Assembly (NCBI RefSeq): GCF_011801145.1
Contig: NZ_CP046172.1
Span: 4,030,001 to 4,094,000 of the forward strand
Length of the DNA stretch: 64,000 bases
Origin: Nocardia arthritidis
Lineage (GTDB): Bacteria > Actinomycetota > Actinomycetes > Mycobacteriales > Mycobacteriaceae
Direction: 5' to 3'
The notes under the pieces were generated by a model, which ran no database searches, was not told the DNA's origin, and saw only the letters and a list, made by a program, of their open reading frames with translations. How positions within the stretch are numbered: position 1 is the first letter of the stretch; each line of letters opens with the position of its first letter. A program made the translations under genes and the position numbers. Positions 4,110 through 17,338 of the stretch are shown one piece after another.

Positions 4110-5522
4110 ATGATGCCACGATTCGTCGGCGACAAGATCCACCCGCGCGGCTATCGGCCGGTGATCGCGCTGGCATTGCCGATCGCGGGCATTCAACTCG
4201 CACAGGTCGCGTTGACCACCGTCGACCTGGCGATGATGGGGCTGATAGGCGTCGTCGCGGTCGCCGCGGGCGGGCTGGCCATCCTGCTGTACAACCAAGT
4301 GCGCACCATGTGCGTCGGCATGGTCACCGGGGTGGGGAATCTGATCGCGGGTGCGGTCGGCAGCGGTGAAAAGCGAACGGGTGGAACGGAAATCGATGAT
4401 CGGACCCGCGCGCAGGTGCGCGACCTGGTGCGGTCGGGATTTCTCGTCGCCACCGTCGTTGGTCTCGTCGCCGCCATGGCGCTCACCGGGTTCGGGCTGC
4501 TGCTGCCGTGGTTCGGGCAACGCCGGGAGATCGTCGAGCAGGCCCGCCCGATGATGATCGTGCTCGCCCCGGGGCTGCTGCCGATGCTGTGGCTGAATGT
4601 GTTGCGGCAGTTCGCGATCGGGATGCGTCGGCCCGGCTCGCTGCTGAAGGTCACCATCGTGTCGATCGCGGTCAACGCGGTACTGAACGCCGCGTTCATC
4701 TACGGCTGGCTCGGGCTGCCCGCACTCGGCCTGACCGGCATCGGTCTGTCGACAACCTGCGTTCAGGTGTTCACCCTCGCGGTCTTCTACTCCCGCATCC
4801 GGCGCGACCCGCACCTCGCCGGGCTGCTCGCCCTCGACTGCTGGAATCTCGATCGCGGCAGCGCCCGCCGCATCGTGCGAATGGGGATCCCCATATCGCT
4901 CACCTACGGCAACGAGGCCGCCATCACCTCGGTCGCCACCCTGTTGATGGGTGCGTTCGGGCCGGCCATGCTGGCCGCGAGCAATGTGGTCAACCAGCTC
5001 ACCTACATCGCCTATCAGCTGAATATCGGTCTTTCCCAGGGATCTTCGATTCTGATCAGCCGGTCCGTCGGCGCGGGCGACCGCGCCGAGGCCGGGCGGA
5101 TCGGCCGCCGTGCGCTCACCGTCGGCGCCGCCGCCATGACGGTGCTCGCGCTGGCGTATCTCGCCGGGCCGCATCTCGTGCTGGCGCCGTTCCTGCACGG
5201 CGGTGACGATGCCGAGGTGGTCGCGACCGCGGCCACCCTGCTGTGGTTCGCCATCGCGCACCAGTATTGCAAAGGCGCACAGAATATTTGCGTCGGAATG
5301 CTGCGCGGCCTCGGCAATACGACCGCGGGCCTGCGCATTACGGTGATCGGCTATTGGTTGATCGGGATACCGGCGATGGCCGGGGCGGCCTACCTACTGC
5401 ACTGGCGCGGCTACGGCGTCTGGCTCGGACTTTGCCTCGGCTTCGGCAGCACCGCGGTGCTACTCCTGAAACAATTCCGTGCGGAACTCCGCATCGAACC
5501 GGAACCGGCCGACAGCCGCTGA
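4110..5522 (+). CDS. MATE-family efflux transporter
   Basis: A 470-residue polytopic membrane protein with about twelve hydrophobic segments. It begins at an ATG in GCATGATG and ends 36 bases before the next gene. The first segment (VIALALPIAGIQLAQVALTTVD) and the repeated two-lobe arrangement fit the multidrug and toxic-compound extrusion family, which uses an Na+ or H+ gradient. Placed third in the biosynthetic operon, 14 bases after the decarboxylase, it is the probable exporter of the cluster product or an intermediate. It is notable that a second exporter of another family follows directly. Confidence 0.8.
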   Translation: MMPRFVGDKIHPRGYRPVIALALPIAGIQLAQVALTTVDLAMMGLIGVVAVAAGGLAILLYNQVRTMCVGMVTGVGNLIAGAVGSGEKRTGGTEIDDRTRAQVRDLVRSGFLVATVVGLVAAMALTGFGLLLPWFGQRREIVEQARPMMIVLAPGLLPMLWLNVLRQFAIGMRRPGSLLKVTIVSIAVNAVLNAAFIYGWLGLPALGLTGIGLSTTCVQVFTLAVFYSRIRRDPHLAGLLALDCWNLDRGSARRIVRMGIPISLTYGNEAAITSVATLLMGAFGPAMLAASNVVNQLTYIAYQLNIGLSQGSSILISRSVGAGDRAEAGRIGRRALTVGAAAMTVLALAYLAGPHLVLAPFLHGGDDAEVVATAATLLWFAIAHQYCKGAQNICVGMLRGLGNTTAGLRITVIGYWLIGIPAMAGAAYLLHWRGYGVWLGLCLGFGSTAVLLLKQFRAELRIEPEPADSR

Positions 5523-5558
5523 CCACGATCGGTGCGGACCAGCAGAGGAGATGGATCG

Positions 5559-6794
5559 ATGTCGGGTGTCAAGCCGTCGGCCCCCGGACCGGTCGAACGA
5601 GCCGAGTCGGTCGCATCGACGAGACGACGTTCGCTGGCAACGCTTTTCGCCGGCGCGGTGCTGATGAATACCGGCGCGGTGGGCTTGTCGACGGTGGCGA
5701 CGATGTTCGCCGCGGAGCAGGCGGGACCGGGTGCGAGCGGGCTGTCCAACGCGGCGCTGGTATTGGGTACGGCGGCAGGGGCGTTGAGCACATCCGCGCT
5801 GCTGGCCAGGCACGGCCGCCGCACCGCGCTGCTGGTCATGTATTGCGCGGCCGGCCTCGGCGGAGTGGTCGCGACCGTTGGCGCGCTGCGTTCTTCGCTG
5901 CCGACACTGCTTGTCGGCGTGCTGGTCTTCGGCGGCGGCTACGGTGCGACCCAGTTGTCCCGCTATGTCGCCGCGGCCGTAATGCCCGACCATCGGCGCG
6001 GATTCGGAGTATCGCTGATCGTGTGGGCGGGGACGGTCGGCGCGGTCGCCGGACCCGCCCTCATCGCGCCCGCGTCGGCGGCCGCCGACGGTGTGCGGTT
6101 ACCCGGCCTGTCCGGACCGGTCGCGCTGTCGGCGATATTCGCCGTCGCCACCGTGGCGGTGACCGTCGCGCTGCCGCACGCCGCGGGCCGGGCCGACGAC
6201 GGGCGACCGGAGCGGTCCTCGCTGTGGTCGGCGCTGCGTGCACGAACGGTGCTGGCGCCGCTGGTGGCCATGGTCGCCGCGCAGGCGGTGATGGTTTCGG
6301 TGATGACGATGACGCCGGTGCAGATGCGCCATCTCGGCAGCGGGTTGGACACCGTGGGCTGGGTGATCAGCGCGCATATGGCCGGAATGTACGCGCTCGC
6401 ACCGGTATCCGGCCGGATCGTCGACCGGTGGGGCGGCCGCGTCGCCATGACGGCGGGTCTGGCCGTGCTGCTGGTCGCGGCGATCACCGTCGTGGCGGCG
6501 CCGGGTTCCTATCGGCTCTGGATACCCATCGGGCTGTTCCTGGTGGGCTACGGCTGGAATCTCGTATTCGTCGGCGGCAGCGGCACACTCAGCCGCGACC
6601 TGCCGACTGGGGAGCGCGCCCGGTTACAGGGGCGGGTCGACGCCGTGGTGTGGGCCAGCTCCGCGCTGGCCAGTCTGTCGGCGGGACAATTGTTCGCCGC
6701 CGGTGGATTTCGGTTGGTGGCCGTGGTCGCGGCGGTGGTCGCCGGGGTGGTGCCCTTGGTGGTCGTTCGGCATCGTGGCGGCGGCCGGCGGTGA
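5559..6794 (+). CDS. MFS transporter, probable product exporter
   Basis: A 411-residue major-facilitator protein with about twelve transmembrane segments. The ATG at 5559 is preceded by GAGGAG at 5545-5550. Motif-A-like sequence GRRTALLVMY lies after the second segment and GRIVDRWGGRVAM after the eighth. It is fourth in the operon, between the MATE exporter and the megasynthase. Staphyloferrin B export also uses an MFS protein (SbnD), so an export role is reasonable, but substrate cannot be read from sequence. Confidence 0.78.
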   Translation: MSGVKPSAPGPVERAESVASTRRRSLATLFAGAVLMNTGAVGLSTVATMFAAEQAGPGASGLSNAALVLGTAAGALSTSALLARHGRRTALLVMYCAAGLGGVVATVGALRSSLPTLLVGVLVFGGGYGATQLSRYVAAAVMPDHRRGFGVSLIVWAGTVGAVAGPALIAPASAAADGVRLPGLSGPVALSAIFAVATVAVTVALPHAAGRADDGRPERSSLWSALRARTVLAPLVAMVAAQAVMVSVMTMTPVQMRHLGSGLDTVGWVISAHMAGMYALAPVSGRIVDRWGGRVAMTAGLAVLLVAAITVVAAPGSYRLWIPIGLFLVGYGWNLVFVGGSGTLSRDLPTGERARLQGRVDAVVWASSALASLSAGQLFAAGGFRLVAVVAAVVAGVVPLVVVRHRGGGRR

Positions 6795-6866
6795 CGGTTC
6801 GGTCGATCTGGGGATGACGAACGTATCGCGGGACGCGGTATCTCAATAAACTGGCCAGTCGATGTC

Positions 6867-9800
6867 GTGTTCACGACGCAGACGATGGAACGTTCGATGG
6901 TCGATCTCGGTGCAGCGCAGTCGCATTCGGCCGGGCAGGGTGCGCTGTCCCGGGCGGCGGAGCCGATCGCCCTCGTCGGCATGGCGTGCCGGATGCCGGG
7001 CGGGGTGTCGAGCCCCGAATCGTTCTGGCGGTTCCTGCGCGCGGGCGGCGATGGTGTCGTCGAGATGCCGAAATCCCGGATGGCTGTTCCGCATCGGGCC
7101 GGATTACTCAGCGGCATAGACGAATTCGACGCCGAGTTCTTCGGGATCTCGCCTCGCGAGGCCGCGGCCGTCGACCCGCGGCACCGGCTACTGCTGGAGG
7201 TCGGGTGGGAGGCACTGGAACATGCCGGATGCCCCGCCGACCGGCTGGTCGGCGAGGCGGTCGGGGTGTTCGTCGGCGTATCCCATGACGAGGGTGTGCG
7301 AATTCCTTCCGGGCCAATGGATTCGGTATCCGGGCATGCGCTCACCGGCGGCGCGGCCTCGTTCGCGGCGGGGCGGCTCGCGTACCATCTCGGGCTGCGC
7401 GGGCCTGCCGTCGCCATCGACACGGCGACCTCGTCATCGCTGGTCGCCGTGCATCTGGCCGCCCAGAGCCTGCGTGCCGGCGAATCCGATCTCGCGCTGG
7501 CGGGCGGGGCCAATATCCTGCTGTCCCCGTACTGGTTCCGGGTGCTGTCCGAGGCGCGAATGTTGTCGCCGACCGGACGCTGTCGAGTGTTCGACGCGAC
7601 CGCCGACGGTTATGTGCGCGGCGAGGGTTGCGGCGTCGTCGTGCTCAAACGTCTGACCGATGCGACAGCGGACGGCGACCGCATCTGGGCGGTGATCCGC
7701 GGTTCCTCGGTCAACTCCGACGGCCGCAGCCGCGGCATCACCGCACCGGACACCGACGCCCAAATCGACCTGATCCGTGCGGCATTGCGCGCCGCGGACC
7801 TGCCGCCCGAACGGATCAACTATGTGGAGGCGCACGGCACCGGCACGCCCATGGGGGATGCGGCGGAGCTGCGCGCGTTGCGCACCGCACTCGGCGCGGA
7901 CCGCGACGGTCGGCCGCTGCTGGTGGGTTCGGTGAAGTCGAATATCGGCCATCTCGAACCGGCCGCGGGTGTCGCGGGCCTGCTCAAGGCGGTGCTGTGC
8001 CTCGCGCACGGTGAGATTCCGCCGCATCCACACCTGAAAACACTCAATCCCATTGCCGGAACTGGCATCTCGGTCCCCACCGAGCTGACCACGCTGCCAC
8101 CCGATCGGCCGCCCGTCGTAGGAGTGAGCTCGTTCGGGGCCAGCGGCACCAACGCGCACGTCATCCTCGAACGGGCCTGCGGCACAGCCGGAAACGACCC
8201 GGCCGGGCCGGATCGCACCGCGCACGTCCTTGCCCTGTCGGCGAAATCGGTCGCCGCCCTGACGAAACTGGCCGCCGCATACTCCGCCCGATTGTCGGCG
8301 ATCGATGACAATCGGCTCGCGGACCTGTGTTTCACCGCGAACATCGGCCGGGCCTTGTTTCCATATCGCGCGGCAGTCACCGCGAGCACCGCGCGGGGCA
8401 TGCGGAAACGCCTCGCGGAGCTGGGCTCCCAGCCCCCCGGCGGGCGGATCGTCTTCCTGTTCTCCGGGGAAGACGCGGTCTACCCGGGCATGTGTAGTCG
8501 GCTGCTCGATACGGAGCCACGCTTCCGGGAAACCCTGGCCGAAGCCGATGAAGTACTGCGGCCACTGCTCGGCTGCCCACTACCGGATGTGCTCAACCGC
8601 GACGATCTGCTCGCCCAGCCCCGCTACGCCCGCCCCGCGCTGTTCGCCGTGGAGTACGCACTCGCCCGACTGTTGCGGCATTGGGGTATCGAAGCGGATG
8701 TGCTGCTCGGCCGCGGTGTCGGTGGGCTGGTGGCTGAATGTGTAAAGGGTGCATTGGATTTCTCGACCGGGTTACGGTTGGCCGCAGAGAGCGGTGCGCG
8801 TGGCGGGACCGGTTTTTCACCTGGTGGGATCGACGGTGTTCCGGGGGGATCCGATCGCGCGTGTGACGGGTGCGACCGCGCGCCACGAGGATTGGATCGT
8901 GCGGCAGCAAGGTCGGAGTCCGCGGTAGGCGGGTTGGACCGTATGCCAGGCGGATTGGATGGTGCGGCGGCAGGGTTGGAGTCTGCGGCGGGCAGGTCGG
9001 ACCGCACGCTAGGCGGGTTGGATCGTGCGGCGGCAGAGTCGGTGTCCGCGGTAGGCGGTTTCGACCGTGCGCCGAGTGAGTTGAGCGGTGTGGCTGCCGG
9101 ATTCGCCGACGAGGTGCGTGCGGTGGCGACGCAGGGTGTCGGCGCCTTTGTGGAACTGGGGCCGACCCCGACACTGCTCGGTCCGGCGGAGGCTGCGGTG
9201 CCGGGCGCGCTGTTGTTGCCGACGCTGCGTCGGGGACGGGACGATTGGCAGGTGCTGGGGGAGTGTGTTGCCGCCTTGCATACCGCGGGTGTCGCGATCG
9301 ACTGGCGCCGTTTCGATGAGGGCAGGGGGCGGCGTTTGGTGACCGCGCCGACCTATCCGTTCCGGCGGGATCGCCATGGGGCGGCCGGGCGGTCCGAGGA
9401 ACCGCCGCTGCTCGGCCGACGATTGCAATCCCCGCTGCCCACTGCGCAATTCGAATCGACGCTGGCACCAGTGATGTATCGGGCGATCGATGAGCATGTG
9501 GTGGACGGCAGTCCACTGGTCGGGGCTGGTGTGCACCTGGCCATGGCGGCGGACGCGGCGCGAGAGTTGACCGGGACCGGGGCGGTGACCATTCGGGACT
9601 ACGAGCTGACTCGGGCGCTGTGGTTGGAACCGGACGACCGCAGGCGCGTCCAGTTCGTGGTGGAGCCCGACGGTTCGTTTCGGCTTCATTCGACCGACGC
9701 GGCCGAACCCGCCGACTGGGACCAAATCTGCCAGGGGCGCACCGATATCGCCGCCGAGCCGTCCACGATGGATGTTGCCGCGATGCGAGGTCGGCTGACC

Positions 9801-12800
9801 GGCGAGCTGACCGCCGACGACCTGTACCGGCGGCTGTGGCGGCGCGCCGTGTACCTCGGTCCGGCGGCGCGCTGGGCCGAACATATCTGGTACGCCGACG
9901 ATGCGGCGATGGCTCGGCTCAGCTCGCCCGAGCACATCCGCTGGGATGGGCGCACGCCGCACCCCGGATTGCTGGAAGCGATGTTCCACACCGTTTTCGG
10001 TTGTCTACCCGAGCAGCCACCCGTGGTCACTCGGATAGAGCGATTCGTCTGGCAGGGCACGACCACCGGCCAGCCGCTCTACTGTTACTGCCGAGTCGAT
10101 CCGAATCCGCCGCTGGCATCGTTCTTTCTCGCGGATGCCTCCGGCAGAGTCGTCGCCGAGGCTCATCGCGTGGAATTCCGCGTGGTGGCTCGGGATTGCC
10201 CTGTCATCGTCCACGACTCGACCCGCACCCAGGACTCGGTGGATTCCGGGTCAGTGCTTGCCGCCGAGCCGGTGTTGGACGATGTTGCCGCTGGGTCGGT
10301 GCTCGATGGCGCTGTCGCCGAGCCGATACACGGTGCAGCTGCCGCTGCGTCGGTGACCGCTGTCATTGAGTCGATACCCGGTGCGGCTGTCGCCAATTCG
10401 GCGCTAGATGACGTTTCCCTCGAACCGATGCGCGAAGCGTCTGCTGCCGATTCGGTGCATGATGACGCTTCCGTCGAGCCGATGCGCGATGCGCCGACCA
10501 CCGCCGCACCGAATCATGTTGCCGCACAGCCGTTCAACGATGCCGACCGAGTACGCACCGTCGTGATCGCAACGCTGGCCCGGGTTCTGGACATCCGCGA
10601 AGCCGATCTCGACCCCGGCATCCCCATGACCGATCTCGGCCTGGACTCATGGATGGCGCTGGAGGCGCAGGACGCGCTGCGCGACGACCTGGGCGTGGCC
10701 CCGCCGCTCGACGCATTCCTGAACGCGCCCAGCGTCGACAGTTTCATCGCCGACCTGGTCGGCGCGCCTGAAGCGGAGGGGCACGAGTCCGCGCCGTCGA
10801 CGCCGGACGAGGCCGGTCGTCATGATCCGTTCCCGCTCACCGATTTACAGCACGCATATCTGGTCGGCCGGTCGACGGCGTTCGAACTCGGCGGAGTCTC
10901 AACCTATTCCTATTTCGAAGTCGATATCGTCGGCCTAGAAATAGACCGGCTCACCTCGGCGCTGCGGGTGCTGATTCGGCGGCACGACATGCTGCGCGCG
11001 GTGGTCAGCGCGGACGGCACCCAGCGAGTGTTGCCGACGGTACCCGAATTCACCATCCGCACAGTGGATCTCGCCGACCTGTCGGCCTCCGAACGGGACG
11101 CCGCGCTCGATCGCATCAGAAGCGAGTCGAAGGGCCAGGTCTTGGATGCGGCCACCTGGCCGCTTTTCGACGTCAGGGCCACCCGGCTGGACGCACGAAC
11201 CACCCGGCTGCACATCGGTCTCGATGCGCTGGTGGTCGACGGCTGGAGCGCGGCGCTGCTGTTCCGGGAATGGGCCACGGTATACCGGGATGGTCCGCAC
11301 GCGCTGCCGGAGCTGACGCTGACCTTCCGCGACTACCTTGCCGCGCTGCGGGAGCGGCGCAATGCCCGCCGGCGCGCCGATGCCGAGCGGTACTGGCGTG
11401 AGCGCATCGCCGAATTACCCGGGGCGCCAAGGCTTCCGCTCGCCATAAACCCGGCCGAGGTCGGCATCCCCGAATTCACCCACCACACTACGACATTGTC
11501 CGCCGCGGAATGGACCGAGCTGCGAAGGATCGCCGGCGCGCACGGCGTCACCCCGTCCGCGGCGCTGTGCACCGCGTACGCGTGGATTCTCGCCGCATGG
11601 AGCGGCACAAGCTCTTTCACCCTCAATGTGATGTTCGCGAACCGGGTGATGTCACACGAGCAGGTGGACTCCGTTGTCGGGAACTTCAGCACCACAACCC
11701 TGCTCGCGGTGGACCTCGCCGACGAAACCTTCGCCCGCACCGTCGAACGGATTCAGAGCCGGCTGTGGACGGATCTGGAACACGGCGACATGTCCGGTGT
11801 CGAGGTGCTGCGCGAGGTGAATCTGCTGCGCGGCAACATCATCGGCGCCAGTATGCCGGTGGTGTTCGCCAGCATGGTCAACTTCGCGGGCCGGGACGGC
11901 GCGGGCGGTATGACCGGCATGGTGCATCACCTGCTCGGGCTCGGCGAGGCGGCGACGGAGGTGTACAGCTGCGTTCGCACACCCCAGGTGTGGCTGGATC
12001 ACCAGATCATCGAGGAGGCAGGCGAACTGGTCGTCAACTGGGATGTGGTGACCGGTCTGTTCCCGGACGGCATGATCGAGACGATGTTCGGCGCGTACGC
12101 CGGACTGCTGCGTCGCCTGGCCGCCGACGAGTCCGCGTGGCAGCGGCCGGCCCCGATCCTCGCGCCCGATGCCGATCTGCTGGCTCGCCGGTCGGCCAAC
12201 GCCACCGGCGAATCCGTCGACGCGGGCCTGCTGCACGAGCCGTTCCTGTTGCGGGCCAAGGAGAATCCGCATGCCGTCGCCGTGATCTCGGCCGCGGCGA
12301 CCCTCACGTACGGCGAGCTCGAAACGCGGTCGGCGCGGCTGGCGAGCCGCCTGCGGGATCGGGGTGTCGGCGGCGGAGCGCTGGTGGCGGTTGTGCTGGA
12401 CAAGGGCGCGCATCAGGTGGTCGCCGTGCTCGGCACGCTCAGGGCGGGCGCGGGCTATGTGCCGATGGACGCCGACGTTCCGGCCGAGCGGTTGCGGGTG
12501 CTGCTCGCCGAGTCGGGCGTCGCGGCGGTCCTGACCGAGCGGGCGGTCGAACAGCGCACCGAGTGGCCGAGCGGCGTAGATCTGCTGTGCGTCGACGAAC
12601 CCGAACCGGACGAGTCGACCGATGGCGCGCCGTTGCCGTGTTCCGCCAGGCCGGATGATTTGGCATATGTGATCTTCACTTCCGGATCCACCGGAACGCC
12701 CAAGGGTGTGATGATCGAGCATCGCGCCGCCCGCAACACCGTGCTCGACATCAACGATCGGTTCCGGATCGGCCCGGGGGACCGGGTGCTCGGACTGTCC

Positions 12801-14732
12801 GCGCTGAATTTCGACCTGTCCGTCTACGACATCTTCGGCACGCTGGCGGCCGGCGCGGCACTCGTGCTGCCGGAGCCCGCGGCACATCGGGAACCGGCTC
12901 GGTGGGCGGATCTCGTTGCCGCGCACGGAGTCACCGTGTGGAACAGTGTGCCCGCGCTGATGGAGATGTTCGTCGATCACCTGACAGCGCGACCCGCGCC
13001 GGTTCCGTTGCGGGTGGTGCTGCTGAGCGGCGACTGGATCCCGGTGACCCTGCCGGACCGCATCCGAAAGCTGGCCCCCGCCACCGTGATCTGCGGTCTC
13101 GGTGGCGCGACAGAGGCTTCGATCTGGTCGATCCACCACCCGATCGACAGGGTCGACCCGGCTGCGACGTCGATCCCGTACGGAAAACCCTTGCGCAACC
13201 AGCGATTCCACGTACTCGACGAGGCGTGGCGGCCATGCCCGACCTGGGTCCCCGGTGAGCTGTACATCGCGGGCGCGGGCCTTGCCCGAGGCTATCTCGG
13301 CGACGAGGCCAAGACGAAGGCCGCCTTCGTCCGGCACCCGGCGACCGACGAACGGATGTACCGCACCGGGGATCTCGGGCGTTACCTGCCGGACGGGTCC
13401 ATCGAATTCCTCGGTCGCCGCGACACACAGGTCAAGATCAACGGCTATCGGGTGGAGCTCGGTGAGATCGAGGCGGCGCTGCTGCGCGACCCCCGAGTTC
13501 GGGCCGCCGCGGCCGCTGTCGTCGGCGAACAGCAGGATCGGCGGCTGGCCGCGTACGCCGTTGCCGACGCCGTGACACCCGACGAGTTGGTGACGGCGCT
13601 GCGCGCGGAACTGCCCGACTACCTGGTGCCGAGGCATATCATGCTGCTCGACGCACTTCCGTTGGGCCGCAACGGAAAACTGGATCGCGCCGCACTGCCC
13701 CTGATCGAACTGTCCCCGGCTGCCCCGCCCGCGCTGGTCGCGCCGCGCGACGACGTCGAACGGACGCTGGCCGATATCTGGGCCGAGCTGTTCCCCGGCC
13801 GGAACTTCGGCATGGACACCACATTCTTTGCGCTGGGCGGAAATTCGCTGCTCGCGGTGCGCCTGATGGCCCGCATCGGCACACAGCTGGGCCGTGCGCT
13901 ACCCCTGTCCGTCCTCTTCGAGCACCCCACCATCGCCACGCTGGCCGAGGTGGTGCGCGAAGGGCGGGCTCGTCGGCGCGCACTGGTGCCGATCAGGGAA
14001 ACCGGTTCGGCGACACCGTGGATCCTGGTGCATCCGGTCGGCGGCGATGTGCTCTGCTACTCGGATCTGGCTTCGCGGCTCGGCCCCGACCAGTCGGTGT
14101 ACGCGCTACAGGTACCGGACACCGACGAGCCGCTGACCACAATTCCAGAGCTGGCCGCGCACTACGTCGACGCACTCCCACGCGGCCGGTACCGGCTCGG
14201 CGGCTGGTCCATGGGCGGCATGATCGCGCTGGAGATGGCGGCACGGCTGAACCGGCGGGGCGCCGAGGTCGAATTCGTCGCCATGGTAGATGTGCTCGAA
14301 CCGCCGAGCCCCCGGAATCCGGATATCCCCGCGGACGCCACACTCCTGTCCTGGTTCGCGAGGGATCTCGCGGGCCTCGCCGGAATCGAGTGGGCACCAG
14401 TAGAATTCGATTCCCTCGACGATCTGCACGACTGGGCGCGCGCCACGGGCGTCCTGCCCGCCGACGTGGACGCCGCCACGCTGACCGCCATCGTCACCCG
14501 ATTCTCCCGCAACACCCGGGCGCTGCTGACCTACCGGGCTCCCAATTACGCGGGCGCCGTTCGCTTTTACCACGCGGCGAACGGTGCGACCCCGGCCACC
14601 GCCGCCGCGTGGCTCGCGCATTGCACGGGCGACGCCCGGATCGTCGAGCTGCCCGGCGATCACTACGGCATCGTCCGGCCACCCCATGTCGAGGCCCTCG
14701 CCGAAGCGCTGCTGAACGAGATCCGCGAGTAG
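6867..14732 (+). CDS. Hybrid PKS/NRPS megasynthase, KS-AT-DH-ACP-Cy-A(Cys)-PCP-TE with degenerate KS and AT
   Basis: About 2,621 residues; GTG 6867 used, ATG 6885 or 6897 possible. Domains (residues): KS 31-455, where the usual DTACSSS nucleophile motif reads DTATSSS (Thr188) while His323 and His362 remain; AT 470-860, where GHSxG reads GRGVG (615-619) and the following catalytic half is replaced by four 21-residue repeats (654-737); DH-like hot-dog domain about 880-1110 with HVVDGSPLVG but LLEA where the catalytic Asp is expected; a low-complexity linker; ACP with LGLDS (Ser1261); heterocyclization domain with D1453-xxxx-D1458-GWS and PQVWLDHQ; adenylation domain whose ten specificity positions read D-L-Y-N-L-S-L-I-W-K, the code known for cysteine; PCP with LGGNS (Ser2327); thioesterase with GWSMGG (Ser2448). 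Predicted output is an acyl thiazoline acid released by the TE. The ACP must be primed in trans, since neither KS nor AT looks competent. Confidence 0.9.
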   Translation: MFTTQTMERSMVDLGAAQSHSAGQGALSRAAEPIALVGMACRMPGGVSSPESFWRFLRAGGDGVVEMPKSRMAVPHRAGLLSGIDEFDAEFFGISPREAAAVDPRHRLLLEVGWEALEHAGCPADRLVGEAVGVFVGVSHDEGVRIPSGPMDSVSGHALTGGAASFAAGRLAYHLGLRGPAVAIDTATSSSLVAVHLAAQSLRAGESDLALAGGANILLSPYWFRVLSEARMLSPTGRCRVFDATADGYVRGEGCGVVVLKRLTDATADGDRIWAVIRGSSVNSDGRSRGITAPDTDAQIDLIRAALRAADLPPERINYVEAHGTGTPMGDAAELRALRTALGADRDGRPLLVGSVKSNIGHLEPAAGVAGLLKAVLCLAHGEIPPHPHLKTLNPIAGTGISVPTELTTLPPDRPPVVGVSSFGASGTNAHVILERACGTAGNDPAGPDRTAHVLALSAKSVAALTKLAAAYSARLSAIDDNRLADLCFTANIGRALFPYRAAVTASTARGMRKRLAELGSQPPGGRIVFLFSGEDAVYPGMCSRLLDTEPRFRETLAEADEVLRPLLGCPLPDVLNRDDLLAQPRYARPALFAVEYALARLLRHWGIEADVLLGRGVGGLVAECVKGALDFSTGLRLAAESGARGGTGFSPGGIDGVPGGSDRACDGCDRAPRGLDRAAARSESAVGGLDRMPGGLDGAAAGLESAAGRSDRTLGGLDRAAAESVSAVGGFDRAPSELSGVAAGFADEVRAVATQGVGAFVELGPTPTLLGPAEAAVPGALLLPTLRRGRDDWQVLGECVAALHTAGVAIDWRRFDEGRGRRLVTAPTYPFRRDRHGAAGRSEEPPLLGRRLQSPLPTAQFESTLAPVMYRAIDEHVVDGSPLVGAGVHLAMAADAARELTGTGAVTIRDYELTRALWLEPDDRRRVQFVVEPDGSFRLHSTDAAEPADWDQICQGRTDIAAEPSTMDVAAMRGRLTGELTADDLYRRLWRRAVYLGPAARWAEHIWYADDAAMARLSSPEHIRWDGRTPHPGLLEAMFHTVFGCLPEQPPVVTRIERFVWQGTTTGQPLYCYCRVDPNPPLASFFLADASGRVVAEAHRVEFRVVARDCPVIVHDSTRTQDSVDSGSVLAAEPVLDDVAAGSVLDGAVAEPIHGAAAAASVTAVIESIPGAAVANSALDDVSLEPMREASAADSVHDDASVEPMRDAPTTAAPNHVAAQPFNDADRVRTVVIATLARVLDIREADLDPGIPMTDLGLDSWMALEAQDALRDDLGVAPPLDAFLNAPSVDSFIADLVGAPEAEGHESAPSTPDEAGRHDPFPLTDLQHAYLVGRSTAFELGGVSTYSYFEVDIVGLEIDRLTSALRVLIRRHDMLRAVVSADGTQRVLPTVPEFTIRTVDLADLSASERDAALDRIRSESKGQVLDAATWPLFDVRATRLDARTTRLHIGLDALVVDGWSAALLFREWATVYRDGPHALPELTLTFRDYLAALRERRNARRRADAERYWRERIAELPGAPRLPLAINPAEVGIPEFTHHTTTLSAAEWTELRRIAGAHGVTPSAALCTAYAWILAAWSGTSSFTLNVMFANRVMSHEQVDSVVGNFSTTTLLAVDLADETFARTVERIQSRLWTDLEHGDMSGVEVLREVNLLRGNIIGASMPVVFASMVNFAGRDGAGGMTGMVHHLLGLGEAATEVYSCVRTPQVWLDHQIIEEAGELVVNWDVVTGLFPDGMIETMFGAYAGLLRRLAADESAWQRPAPILAPDADLLARRSANATGESVDAGLLHEPFLLRAKENPHAVAVISAAATLTYGELETRSARLASRLRDRGVGGGALVAVVLDKGAHQVVAVLGTLRAGAGYVPMDADVPAERLRVLLAESGVAAVLTERAVEQRTEWPSGVDLLCVDEPEPDESTDGAPLPCSARPDDLAYVIFTSGSTGTPKGVMIEHRAARNTVLDINDRFRIGPGDRVLGLSALNFDLSVYDIFGTLAAGAALVLPEPAAHREPARWADLVAAHGVTVWNSVPALMEMFVDHLTARPAPVPLRVVLLSGDWIPVTLPDRIRKLAPATVICGLGGATEASIWSIHHPIDRVDPAATSIPYGKPLRNQRFHVLDEAWRPCPTWVPGELYIAGAGLARGYLGDEAKTKAAFVRHPATDERMYRTGDLGRYLPDGSIEFLGRRDTQVKINGYRVELGEIEAALLRDPRVRAAAAAVVGEQQDRRLAAYAVADAVTPDELVTALRAELPDYLVPRHIMLLDALPLGRNGKLDRAALPLIELSPAAPPALVAPRDDVERTLADIWAELFPGRNFGMDTTFFALGGNSLLAVRLMARIGTQLGRALPLSVLFEHPTIATLAEVVREGRARRRALVPIRETGSATPWILVHPVGGDVLCYSDLASRLGPDQSVYALQVPDTDEPLTTIPELAAHYVDALPRGRYRLGGWSMGGMIALEMAARLNRRGAEVEFVAMVDVLEPPSPRNPDIPADATLLSWFARDLAGLAGIEWAPVEFDSLDDLHDWARATGVLPADVDAATLTAIVTRFSRNTRALLTYRAPNYAGAVRFYHAANGATPATAAAWLAHCTGDARIVELPGDHYGIVRPPHVEALAEALLNEIRE
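8826..9077 (+). repeat. 63-bp tandem repeat, four copies, inside the AT region of the megasynthase
   Basis: Copies at 8826-8888, 8889-8951, 8952-9014 and 9015-9077 keep the reading frame. Each encodes 21 residues; copies 2-4 start GLDRAAA, GLDGAAA and GLDRAAA. Copy 1 (starting GIDGVPG) is the most diverged. The block sits exactly where the catalytic core of a normal acyltransferase should be; flanking AT sequence (FVELGPTPTLL and TAPTYPFRRDRHG) resumes after it. Confidence 0.85.
10225..10530 (+). repeat. Degenerate in-frame repeat encoding the DH-ACP linker
   Basis: About 100 residues rich in Ala, Val, Asp, Ser and Glu with an imperfect period of roughly 16-18 residues: units contain AEPVLDD, AEPIHG, IESIPG, LEPMREA and VEPMRDA. 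It joins the DH-like domain to the ACP and is likely a flexible acidic tether. Confidence 0.6.
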
Positions 14733-14775: not shown

Positions 14776-15663
14776 CTACCGCGTGTGCGTCGAGATTCCG
14801 TGCGGGACAACGAAGTAGCCGCGGCAACAGAACTGGAGATCTATCTGTCCGTTGGGTTCGGCGTAGCCGTCGTGGAGCATGTTCTCGGTGGGGGCGATAT
14901 AGGCCTCGCCCGGGTGGATGGTGATCTTCGTGACCGGATAACGCGGGAACACCTCCATGAAGCGATTGCCCAGGGCGCGGCGCGGGTTGTCCGCGCCGTC
15001 GAGCAGCCCGCGTCGGCGCAGCGCCCGCTCCATCGCCTGGAGGGGAGCGTTGACGCAGAGCAGCCAGCGGTCGTGATGACCTACGTTGACGGACAGGCGA
15101 TTCGGCGCCGTCGCGCGCTCCGCCAGCGGGCTGTCGTCCCAACTGTCGACGTGCAGTCCGACCCTGCGGCCGTCATCTCCCGTCGTCATCGTCGGATTCC
15201 CCGCGGGTGTTCTGCCGTAGATGAGCGGGTTTTCGATACCGGGCCGCGCCGGGTCGTTCAGCGTCATGGCCCAGCGGATCGCCTCGACCAGCGCCATGCG
15301 GCCCGCCGGACCGTCGATCAGTGATCTCAGTGCCTGCCCATCGCCGTCGGCCGCTGCGGCGCGCAGTGCGGTGAACGCCGAAAGCACCTGAGCGGGAACG
15401 GGAAGAACGGTGATCCAGTCACCGGGCCGCGCCTGCGGGGCGGGCGTGCCGTACAGGACGGAGCGTTCGTGACAGGTCGGTGGTCGCCACCGCTGGTTGG
15501 GTACCATCGCGCCATCGGAATACGTTGTGGCGCAAATGGTTTCGGTCGCCGGAAGGACGCCGGAACTCAGTTCCACCCGTCCGGCGGCCGGTGCGCCGGA
15601 CGGGAGCATTAGGGTCATTCCGTCGAGGAGGCCGGGGTGGTCGATATCTTTTCGGATCAGCAT
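14776..15663 (-). CDS. Probable Fe(II)/2-oxoglutarate-type oxygenase of the radical SAM peptide operon
   Basis: A 295-residue protein that I cannot place in a named family. It carries an HxD motif in GLHVDSWDD, followed by NRLSVNVG, a run with WLLCVNAPL, then ITIHPGEAYIAPT, a second histidine in NMLHDGY and a late arginine in FCCRGYF. This order (HxD, distal His, Arg) matches Fe(II)/2-oxoglutarate dioxygenases, which hydroxylate, desaturate or cyclise substrates. The start is ATG 15663, 48 bases after the radical SAM gene on the same strand. It is the last gene of a three-gene operon (secreted peptide, radical SAM, this gene) convergent with the megasynthase, 43 bases away. A second tailoring step on the peptide is the natural inference. 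The family assignment is tentative. Confidence 0.5.
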   Translation of the reverse strand: MLIRKDIDHPGLLDGMTLMLPSGAPAAGRVELSSGVLPATETICATTYSDGAMVPNQRWRPPTCHERSVLYGTPAPQARPGDWITVLPVPAQVLSAFTALRAAAADGDGQALRSLIDGPAGRMALVEAIRWAMTLNDPARPGIENPLIYGRTPAGNPTMTTGDDGRRVGLHVDSWDDSPLAERATAPNRLSVNVGHHDRWLLCVNAPLQAMERALRRRGLLDGADNPRRALGNRFMEVFPRYPVTKITIHPGEAYIAPTENMLHDGYAEPNGQIDLQFCCRGYFVVPHGISTHTR

Positions 15664-15711
15664 GGTTGTTCCGGGGGTCGGTAAGTGGTTGGGGTGCCGC
15701 GTATTTCGCGG

Positions 15712-16878
15712 TTATGCGACGGCGTGCTGTCGTTGCCACTGCGCTACCGTCTCGGGTACCCGGCCGCGCAGCTGCTCGATGATGTAGGCGATCATCGGCC
15801 TGGCGGTGCACAGCAGGGTGCCGTGGCCGTCCTGGTCGCGATCGCGGGTCTCGGTATCGGCGACCAGCGAGCCGCCGCAGACGTCGAAGAACGGGCAGGA
15901 CAAGCAGTTTCGAGCCACCCTGCGCTCGGCCTCGACCGCGCAGCGTTCGAAGACCGGGCCCGCCAGCATATCGGCGAACGGCTCGGTGAAGATATTGCCG
16001 ATCGACCATTCGGGATCGCCGTAGGGTTCACCGTAGGTGAAGCACGAACCGTCGGTGTTGACCAACAGCACCGGCAGCCATTCCCGGCGGTCGCAATACT
16101 CGGTCCGCTGGGCCCCGGCCAGATGCTGGGCCGCGAACTGCACATAGCCGTCGAGCGGAGCCGGGGGTCGCGCCATCGTCTCGCCCGCCAGCCACAGATC
16201 GACCAGTCGCGCGAGCGCGGACAACTCCTGCTCCCTGCTCACCTCGAACGGTGTGGTCTGGCCGGGTTCGCCGGTATCGAACAGTGGCAGCACCCGAAAG
16301 TGCAGATTCCGTTCCTCGAAGAAGCGGAACACCTCGTCGACGGCATGGATGTTCTGTGCGGTCAGGACCGATATGCAGCCGAAGGGGATACTGTCGGCCA
16401 GCAGCGTGTCCAGGTTCCGCGCCACGCGGTCCTGCGAGTCACGCCCCGCCGCGTTCACCCGCAATCCGCCTGCCACGTCGATGGATACGCCGACGGAGTC
16501 GAAACCCTCGCCGAGCAACTGGCGGCGTTCGTCGTCCAGCACAACGAGATTCGTCTGTACGCTGTTGCCCGTCGGGATCTCCGCGCCGAATATCTCCCGC
16601 TGATCGGCCCACGTCTGTCGGTAGAACTGTGCAGGCTGCAGCAGCGGTTCGCCACCGTGCCAGATGAATTCGAGCCTCGTCCGCGCGCCGTCCCGGTTGT
16701 CGGCGAATCGGATATAGTCACGCAGGTTGCGGTACATGGCGGCCACCTGCGCATTGGACATGGCCGCGCGGTTGCCGAGTTCCGGGTATTCATAACAGTA
16801 TCGGCAGCGCAGATTGCAGAATTTCGAGACCTTCACCACGATCTGCATACTTCTGTTGGTCGAATCCACTTGGGGCAC
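15712..16878 (-). CDS. Radical SAM/SPASM peptide-modifying enzyme
   Basis: A 388-residue radical SAM protein. The [4Fe-4S]-SAM cluster motif is CNLRCRYC (Cys21, Cys25, Cys28) and FIWHGGEPLL is the usual glycine-rich SAM-binding strand. The C-terminal third has a cysteine cluster (CAVEAERR, NCLSCPFFDVCGG) typical of SPASM/twitch auxiliary iron-sulphur sites found in RiPP maturases. The GTG start at 16878 follows AAGAAGGA. The gene lies 76 bases after a gene for a secreted peptide with repeated Phe-X-Gln and before an oxygenase-like gene. Enzymes of this class form C-C, C-S or C-O links on peptide side chains, including aromatic-to-Cbeta cyclophanes. The aromatic-X-Gln repeats of the neighbour are the likely substrate (inference). 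Confidence 0.85.
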   Translation of the reverse strand: MPQVDSTNRSMQIVVKVSKFCNLRCRYCYEYPELGNRAAMSNAQVAAMYRNLRDYIRFADNRDGARTRLEFIWHGGEPLLQPAQFYRQTWADQREIFGAEIPTGNSVQTNLVVLDDERRQLLGEGFDSVGVSIDVAGGLRVNAAGRDSQDRVARNLDTLLADSIPFGCISVLTAQNIHAVDEVFRFFEERNLHFRVLPLFDTGEPGQTTPFEVSREQELSALARLVDLWLAGETMARPPAPLDGYVQFAAQHLAGAQRTEYCDRREWLPVLLVNTDGSCFTYGEPYGDPEWSIGNIFTEPFADMLAGPVFERCAVEAERRVARNCLSCPFFDVCGGSLVADTETRDRDQDGHGTLLCTARPMIAYIIEQLRGRVPETVAQWQRQHAVA

Positions 16879-16954
16879 AATCCTTCTTGCGTCGGCGTCT
16901 GGGGGGCGCCCGCCGCCAGGACGTGCACGGCCTGGCGACGGGCGGGTGCGCGGA

Positions 16955-17338
16955 TCAGGGTTGGGACAGCTGCTGGAAGGGGTCCGGCGGCGGATTGACC
17001 GGCGGGGGCGCCTGGTGGAACGGCTTGAACTGGTCGAAGCCTGTTCCCTGACGGAATGGACCCTCGTTGTACTGATGGAACTGATGGAACGGATTCGGTT
17101 CCACCGTGTCCGGATGCACGCCGTGCGCGGCGGTGAGCTCCACGGTGGCCCCCTGGCCGAGCAATGTCGACAGGTGAGTCAGCGGTGCGGCCCCGACTGC
17201 GGGGGTCGGCACCGGCGGGGCGGTCGCCGCCTCGGCCGGACCGGCGACGCCGGCCACGACCGCCGGAACGGCGGCCATGGTCGCGGCGATCGCGGCGAGC
17301 CGGGCTATGGCCGCGGCTCTACTGCTTGGAGATGACAT
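16955..17338 (-). CDS. Secreted peptide with repeated aromatic-X-Gln motifs, probable radical SAM substrate
   Basis: A 127-residue protein; ATG 17338 is preceded by GGAAGGAA. Residues 1-38 form a Sec signal peptide (hydrophobic IARLAAIAATMAAVPAVVAG, cleavage near AEA). The mature part is Pro/Ala-rich, then from residue 84 it holds FHQ (84-86), FHQ (87-89), YNE (90-92), FRQ (95-97), FDQ (101-103), FKP (104-106), FHQ (107-109) and FQQ (121-123), ending LSQP. The order precursor, radical SAM, oxygenase on one strand is that of a RiPP operon. Export through Sec rather than a leader-peptidase ABC transporter is unusual. It could instead be an ordinary Pro-rich secreted protein that merely lies here; the coupling with the maturase makes that less likely. 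Confidence 0.6.
   Translation of the reverse strand: MSSPSSRAAAIARLAAIAATMAAVPAVVAGVAGPAEAATAPPVPTPAVGAAPLTHLSTLLGQGATVELTAAHGVHPDTVEPNPFHQFHQYNEGPFRQGTGFDQFKPFHQAPPPVNPPPDPFQQLSQP

Follow-up and report, generated by a model that had tools for sequence, protein, structure and literature searches.

A candidate triceptide-like cassette with a MicC-type oxygenase in Nocardia arthritidis

Described cyclophane systems and the Nocardia cassette

The bonds of triceptides, in the passages of PMC11002830 devoted to them, run from a ring carbon of residue i to the C-beta of residue i+2. The described systems closest to the locus reported here include the GrrM/OscB triceptides (TIGR04261), the maturases FxsB (TIGR04269) and AmcB (NF041718), the DynA and DarE enzymes, and MicC (PDB 9vkm), an alpha-ketoglutarate-dependent non-heme iron oxygenase. 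We analysed a 64,000-nucleotide stretch of the Nocardia arthritidis genome (NZ_CP046172.1, positions 4,030,001 to 4,094,000; hereafter the window), which contains a radical S-adenosylmethionine (SAM) cassette of three genes, for a precursor, a maturase and an oxygenase, that follow one another on the minus strand. Our best reading is that it belongs to a new family of biosynthetic systems, triceptide-like and equipped with a MicC-type oxygenase; the chemistry is inferred. We consider it quite probable that the maturase makes three-residue cyclophanes at Phe/Tyr-X-Gln/Glu triplets, which the oxygenase hydroxylates, with probable export by Sec.

GrrM/OscB systems share with the cassette the missing first-cluster Cys of the maturase, aromatic-X-(N/D/Q) triplets in the open reading frame (ORF) before a Nostoc plasmid GrrM, and the oxygenase family itself, which stands next door to GrrM on two plasmids. 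They differ in that the cassette maturase forms a separate clade (branch 1.68) and gains 93 bits against a GrrM cut-off of 310, that GrrM has CX3CX5C where the cassette has CX2CX5C, and that the third residue of the cassette triplets is nearly always Gln/Glu. FxsB and AmcB also miss the first-cluster Cys, and FxsB has CX2CX5C as well, but the cassette maturase gains 68 of 370 and 102 of 425 bits with their models and is separate from both in the tree. DynA and DarE likewise use radical SAM enzymes to cross-link aromatic residues, and DynA gives the best NCBIfam score of the maturase (139 bits; DarE 83). However, both scores are far below the cut-offs (450 and 650), and DynA and DarE keep the first-cluster Cys. 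MicC is homologous to most of the window oxygenase (residues 14-284). A repeat precursor, a radical SAM gene and an Fe/alpha-ketoglutarate oxidase also come together in the tvg cluster of Halomonas and in 'Cluster 41' with its H(Y)NR peptides, but the sections of PMC9062424 on these clusters describe TVGG repeats giving cyclopropylglycine for the former and Tyr/His-Asn-Arg repeats with a putative peptidase for the latter. TvgC is described as IPR018724.

The original prediction had placed three same-strand genes here in the order precursor, maturase, tailoring enzyme, and the ORFs were found in this place and order. The maturase ORF is open from 16878; a GTG start at 16869 agrees with homologous proteins and with P0007, the database copy of 385 aa, and with this start the intergenic gaps are 85 bases (precursor/maturase) and 48 bases (maturase/oxygenase). 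The host genome consists of one contig of 10.0 Mb, and close homologues that carry a source name come from Nocardia.

To describe the distribution of the cassette, we searched Nocardia genomes, and it turned out that the maturase (E <= 1e-60) is present in 6 of 150 genomes at 7 loci, two of them in the window genome; a search of 148 genomes gave 6 of 148. In 148 genomes the precursor profile matched the same 6 genomes and 7 loci, and two further marginal matches (E 0.007 and 0.009, 19 bits) were taken for chance. The precursor adjoins the maturase in 7 of 7 loci, and so does the oxygenase, which is damaged or partial at one of them. Maturase genes lacking the repeat peptide next to them, or a wide occurrence of the peptide without the maturase, had been named as what would refute the proposal; neither was found within Nocardia, where the three genes are kept together in the same 6 genomes and 7 loci. 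Locus G141 still has an intact precursor, but its maturase is broken and its oxygenase partial, a state that we read as decay of the three-gene unit. The window genome has a second complete cassette with the same layout (G000:C1:297486-299149 and on; L002, L055), which has diverged (precursor 57% identity, maturase 78%) and carries the triplets FHQ, FHQ, FNQ, FHQ, FDE, FHQ and FDQ. No gene beyond the three is common to all seven 20-kb neighbourhoods, and these have no common protease or transporter gene.

The triplet rule and the maturase clade

The precursor gene (16955..17338, minus strand; ATG at 17338, stop at 16955) encodes 127 aa without Cys, comprising a Sec-like start, a linker and a triplet-rich core. 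By hydropathy and alignment, residues 1-37 (17228..17338) form the Sec-like signal: the most hydrophobic 15-mer (mean hydropathy 2.21) begins at residue 14, and an A-E-A site takes up the last positions before residue 38, in agreement with the signal peptide claimed in the original prediction. Residues 38-80 (17099..17227) are the linker, with a conserved H-L-x-T-L patch that is a candidate recognition site. In 10 aligned Nocardia precursors, 17 of 37 positions of the signal region are invariant and 7 of 43 of the linker; the stronger conservation of the signal region fits a double role, and it may possibly serve also as the leader of a ribosomally synthesized and post-translationally modified peptide (RiPP).

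The core, residues 81-127 (16958..17098), holds FHQ 84, FHQ 87, YNE 90, FRQ 95, FDQ 101, FHQ 107 and FQQ 121, plus a non-conserved FKP 104. The eight triplets listed before (FHQ, FHQ, YNE, FRQ, FDQ, FKP, FHQ and FQQ in 40 residues) thus lie at residues 84-123. Their repetition is above chance, but FKP has to be struck from the conserved ones: among the 10 aligned precursors this position is aromatic only in the window precursor and its 97% copy P0001. Seven triplets are conserved, or six in P0002, P0003 and P0006, where the third one is missing. The full length and the C-terminus of the precursor are conserved too.

In the window core, Q/E follows at +2 for 7 of 8 aromatics (shuffles: mean 1.49; 0 of 20,000 reach 7), with no excess at +1, +3 or +4. 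For 11 Nocardia precursors the count is 75 of 78 core aromatics (65 Q, 10 E); these proteins are kin and not independent, so that the shuffle count of 0 of 5,000 is no probability. The 78 aromatics are 76 Phe, 1 Tyr and 1 Trp; F-K-P (twice) and W-I-N (once) break the rule. At the middle place 12 kinds of residue occur, with His after 37 of 78 aromatics, while the third stays nearly fixed.

Outside Nocardia, 12 precursors were picked by hand, each being the closest plausible ORF ahead of the maturase on its strand, a choice that may bring bias. D/E/N/Q stands at +2 for 49 of their 85 aromatics (shuffled fraction 0.24; 0 of 3,000 shuffles reach the count), with no such excess at +1, +3, +4 or +5, and +2 is positive for 60 of 85 when K and R are counted as well. 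In three Nif11-leader cores (L094, and L100 twice), all 9 aromatics are in aromatic-X-(D/E/N/Q) triplets. The count includes no precursor from L061, whose frame is broken in the assembly, from L099, where the maturase is partial, or from L071-L073, and L011, which encodes a copy of the L013 motif, was left out as well. As in triceptide loci, then, an adjacent precursor carries aromatic-X-X triplets constrained at +2, by Q/E in Nocardia and by D/E/N/Q in the relatives, and the maturase has the Cys pattern of the sampled cyclophane maturases, as described below.

The maturase gene (15712..16869, minus strand) encodes 385 aa from the GTG at 16869, assigned by Pfam and alignment. It had been called a SPASM radical SAM enzyme; the radical SAM domain is matched (PF04055, E 2.7e-11), but the SPASM domain scores 18.1, below the Pfam cut-off of 21.5, which fits the missing first-cluster Cys. 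SPASM enzymes carry two auxiliary clusters. From sulfatase-maturase structures we take CxxCx5C plus a later Cys to be the second auxiliary cluster, and four other Cys to be the first. In 388-aa numbering, CxxxCxxC is at 21-28, GGE at 75-77 and the second-cluster Cys at 325, 328, 334 and 357; no Cys is found at the columns of the first cluster. CxxxCxxC is present in 45 of 45 family rows reaching that region, and the second-cluster Cys are kept in 46, 46, 46 and 45 of 46 rows. First-cluster columns 282 and 338 hold Cys in 0 of 46 family rows and in 0 of 9 GrrM, AmcB, AmcB-like and FxsB rows, versus both columns in 8 of 8 other reference rows (four DynA, one DarE, two sulfatase-maturase, one unlabelled). 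Two more first-cluster columns, 260 and 266, have no Cys in the 46 family rows, versus Cys in four of five references. The loss of the first-cluster Cys was therefore rejected as a unique mark of this clade, since GrrM, AmcB and FxsB rows show the same loss. The spacing CX2CX5C is shared by the maturase clade and FxsB, and CX3CX5C by GrrM and AmcB. By its Cys pattern, though not by family score, the maturase goes with the sampled cyclophane makers, the sample being GrrM, AmcB, AmcB-like and FxsB rows.

The remaining NCBIfam scores are 79 bits for YhhB (cut-off 445), 39 for XyeB (450) and 129 for the sulfatase maturase model (349). Because the cut-offs are missed, membership in GrrM/OscB, AmcB, FxsB, YhhB, XyeB, DynA or DarE was ruled out, and ten relatives of the maturase likewise reach no NCBIfam cut-off. 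The family comes out as a single clade (support 100/100) in a tree that holds 38 of its rows and 17 references. The tree was built from 63 sequences after dropping 8 near-duplicate family rows, and XyeB, YhhB and PapB are not among its rows. Its references include five rows of FxsB, one of AmcB and an AmcB-like one below the cut-off, as well as L037, which has no label, and L046, whose sulfatase-maturase label was confirmed by a check after the tree; DarE and L071 have long branches.

The oxygenase and relatives outside Nocardia

The oxygenase gene (14776..15663, minus strand) encodes up to 295 aa, with H171-x-D173 ... H264, and was identified by homology, alignment and model. It passes no Pfam or NCBIfam cut-off, and no Pfam family is matched at E 0.01 among 99 aligned oxygenases; most names that sources give for oxygenases of the family are 'hypothetical protein'. 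One further match, P0230, bears PF13640 and was left out of the 99-row alignment. The triad H171, D173, H264 is invariant in 99 of 99 rows. R281, the candidate 2-oxoglutarate (2OG) arginine, is Arg in 79 of 99 rows and Leu in 14, and R189 and R199 are invariant. The AlphaFold2 model (mean predicted local distance difference test score, pLDDT, 94.1) is remotely like KdoO and FIH, and the fold agrees with the 2OG oxygenase superfamily. MicC was matched by the family profile with E 1.2e-56, and by the window sequence alone with E 2.7e-23 over residues 14-284; 9vkm was absent among the fold-search matches listed. A literature search for a paper on MicC or on a maturase-oxygenase pair found none. 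With the triad complete in every aligned row and a solved 2OG oxygenase as homologue, the earlier call of an Fe/2OG-like oxygenase is well borne out.

Of 15 cyanobacterial loci, 7 have the oxygenase next to the maturase (L009, L010, L012, L094, L097, L098, L100). L009, from a Thermosynechococcaceae metagenome-assembled genome, has two tandem genes (4998-7157 and 7154-9370; 719 and 738 aa) in which the oxygenase follows the maturase as a C-terminal fusion; a Nif11-leader peptide precedes them. Besides, the family occurs beside GrrM genes on two plasmids (GrrM 437 and 351 bits, curated cut-off 310). On the Nostoc sp. TCL26-01 plasmid the order is small ORF, GrrM, oxygenase; the ORF ends in ..NWDNSFLQWNDSWGNGGNGH and has an F-L-Q triplet beside W-D-N, W-N-D and W-G-N. 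A phytanoyl-CoA dioxygenase-like gene, the triplet ORF, GrrM and the MicC-type oxygenase lie there in a row (L101, plasmid pTCL26-01_E, 489-4441). On the Streptomyces sp. ADI95-16 plasmid the oxygenase comes before GrrM, near lanthipeptide-type genes; the neighbours (L103/L105) are annotated as LanC, lantibiotic dehydratase and thiopeptide-type biosynthesis protein, and together they may form a hybrid RiPP cluster. At the Streptomyces NBC_01454 and Methylocystis parvus plasmid loci, the 7-kb flanks of the oxygenase show no gene annotated as radical SAM, so the oxygenase is not always paired with one.

The oxygenase tree puts the GrrM-linked enzyme of Nostoc in one group with the Nocardia enzymes (89/86, together with five rows of unknown context), apart from the cyanobacterial oxygenases of the maturase clade; support is moderate, ten branches are long, and 20 of the 36 rows fall into no group. 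This grouping suggests that the oxygenase was exchanged between maturase clades, as if it recognised the product and not the partner.

These plasmid loci also bear on novelty. The original prediction had spoken of a new type of system, which goes too far: the cassette fits the triceptide class already described, and the oxidase family, of which MicC is a solved member, also stands beside GrrM/OscB. Nor is Gln as third residue foreign to described families, given the F-L-Q triplet before the Nostoc GrrM, which is over its cut-off. Sec export had been regarded as distinctive; the Sec-like start is there, but it may not be exclusive, as the small ORF before the GrrM gene of L086, a putative precursor only, starts with a similar hydrophobic stretch. 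With the Nostoc and L086 ORFs, the uniqueness of Gln plus a Sec-like start was dropped. As far as the searches reach, novelty lies in the maturase clade, in the Gln/Glu triplets, in the Sec-like Nocardia precursor and in the MicC-type partner, fusions included.

The maturase clade occurs in Actinomycetes, Cyanobacteria and Myxobacteria, and named relatives include Actinocrinis, Streptomyces, Hyalangium and Nostoc proteins. Its distribution is patchy: 2 of 296 genomes in the class (the window genome among them), 4 of 244 in the cyanobacterial phylum (one the centre of the set, two only at 35%), 8 of 388 in the cyanobacterial order (the centre and one other overlap the phylum set), and 2 of 297 in the Streptantibioticus family (one the centre), plus one Myxococcales contig. 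On plasmids, no maturase match was found with the window maturase and P0097 as queries. A search with the Nocardia precursor gave six Nocardia proteins only and did not match the peptides beside the relatives' maturases. Those peptides include ..PFKEGFADFKEKPGFADFTK.. in Calothrix, ..SWTDSWSDSWGES.. in Oscillatoria, ..FFVEGPGNPPGWHERFGDKG.. in Streptantibioticus and ..RYPWGRYPWGRYPWDRP.. in Komarekiella, where the triplets end in Arg, as well as Nif11-type leader peptides with cores such as ATPKFIDFSDEPLFIEV and TPSFVDFSDEPLFVQV. The leader type, Sec-like or Nif11, varies between loci, most triplets of the relatives are without His, and Gln is one of several third residues within the family.

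Some local features of these peptides were also seen. L013 (4572-4934), L014 (1228-1755) and L011, from Streptantibioticus and Myxococcales, share the core Y-x-[DE]-F-[FW]-V-E-G...[FW]-H-E-x-F-x-D, which is repeated twice in the L014 precursor. The cyanobacterial Sec-type precursors of L010, L012, L063, L070 and L095-L098 show by eye two candidate recognition sites: a K-[ILV]-x-x-[LI] patch that follows the signal and, in most of them, a PSAV-like motif close to the end. The distant maturase relatives (35%) of L071 and L073 (G502) lie among secreted-looking ORFs starting with MKIKKRGKTLITLVSIAGMATASSSG, and no oxygenase was found there.

Proposed chemistry and rival explanations

In the proposed mechanism, the maturase would act on the cytoplasmic precursor, take hydrogen from the C-beta of Gln/Glu and join this carbon to the aromatic ring two residues before, triplet by triplet, giving up to seven three-residue cyclophanes per precursor. 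The Fe/2OG oxygenase would then hydroxylate a residue of the cyclised core, and the modified chain is predicted to leave through its Sec-like signal, probably by Sec. Since iron-sulfur and SAM chemistry takes place in the cytoplasm, modification would precede export. The original prediction had taken the aromatic-X-X triplets as the substrate of a cyclophane enzyme; triplets of such kind are indeed present, and the chemistry on them stays a proposal. As to the product, a secreted signal or antagonist is our guess. If all this is true, the range of residues that radical SAM enzymes can link to an aromatic ring widens to include Gln and Glu, a single precursor bears up to seven rings, and the cross-linked chain would have to cross the Sec channel. 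Because the maturase and ten relatives are under all curated cut-offs and the oxygenases are mostly 'hypothetical protein', the combination of such a maturase, a 2OG gene and aromatic-X-D/E/N/Q triplets offers a handle for oxidised cyclophane peptides which current models miss.

A broader picture is put forward tentatively, and with more doubt than confidence: the half-SPASM clade and an exchanged MicC-type oxygenase that reads the cyclophane, with the signal doubling as leader, might form a modular 'cyclise, oxidise, secrete' system, shared by Actinomycetes and Cyanobacteria, in which Sec and Nif11 leaders can replace each other.

Several observations weigh against the cyclophane proposal. 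The third residues named in the triceptide passages of PMC11002830 are Arg, Asn, Asp, Ser and Ala, and PMC9055067 gives Lys for darobactin, not Gln/Glu. The maturase is under the curated cut-off of every named cyclophane maturase, and its clade differs from GrrM/AmcB in one Cys spacing. The eight cyanobacterial Sec-type precursors show a mild +1 excess with K/R counted (31 of 63; 69 of 3,000 shuffles), and L010 (2 of 11 aromatics) and L096 (3 of 5) fit the D/E/N/Q rule poorly. Within the fetched flanks, about 1.5 kb in some loci, no oxygenase was found near 8 of 15 cyanobacterial loci (L063, L070, L071, L072, L073, L095, L096, L099), nor near L011, L013, L014 and L061 (two Streptantibioticus loci, G390 and the myxobacterial locus), so that it looks optional. 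Finally, the proposed product would be a chain with several strained rings, which would have to pass through Sec.

Among other explanations, the one that survives best is compatible with cyclophane formation: the secreted F-X-Q protein may have a structural or metal-binding role at the cell surface, with cross-links that stabilise it, and not be a small natural product. The conserved full length and C-terminus, the His-rich core and the lack of a protease or transporter gene common to the cassette neighbourhoods speak for it, but in Nif11-leader relatives the stretch after the GG of the leader is as short as 19-25 residues, which resembles a peptide product, and we regard this explanation as rather unlikely. 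Less probable still is that the maturase installs another radical SAM modification on the triplets, such as a C-N or C-O bond or a link to the middle His. His is the middle residue after nearly half of the Nocardia core aromatics (37 of 78), and the best-scoring model, at 139 of 450 bits, is that of the dynobactin maturase, whose product, in the account of PMC11002830, carries a C-N besides a C-C link. However, it is the middle residue that varies and the third that is nearly fixed, the relatives' triplets mostly lack His, and DynA and DarE rows keep the first-cluster Cys that the maturase clade is without. A sulfatase-maturase-like (formylglycine) or thioether enzyme with the repeat peptide as a chance neighbour is highly improbable: the nearest solved sequences are anaerobic sulfatase-maturating enzymes (4k37, E 2.8e-15) and one source names the relative P0010 'anaerobic sulfatase-maturation protein', but the Cys-free precursor, the missed cut-offs (129 of 349 bits with the sulfatase model) and the absent first-cluster Cys, which both sulfatase-maturase rows have, speak against such chemistry, and the peptide adjoins the maturase gene in 7 of 7 Nocardia loci. 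Sactipeptide or ranthipeptide membership was ruled out as well, as the core has no Cys donors.

A tie to DUF4386-like, DUF1330 or adjoining polyketide synthase/non-ribosomal peptide synthetase (PKS/NRPS) genes is unsupported, for these are not common to the seven neighbourhoods. The only other matches among the neighbourhoods are weak (26-31% identity) and connect large ORFs of PKS/NRPS type in the window, in L056 and in L060, with one further L056-L060 pair; such genes are near the cassette in 3 of 7 loci. In the window, a hybrid PKS/NRPS ORF of 2,621 aa (6867-14732, plus strand) is convergent with the cassette and ends 43 bases from the 3' end of the oxygenase gene.

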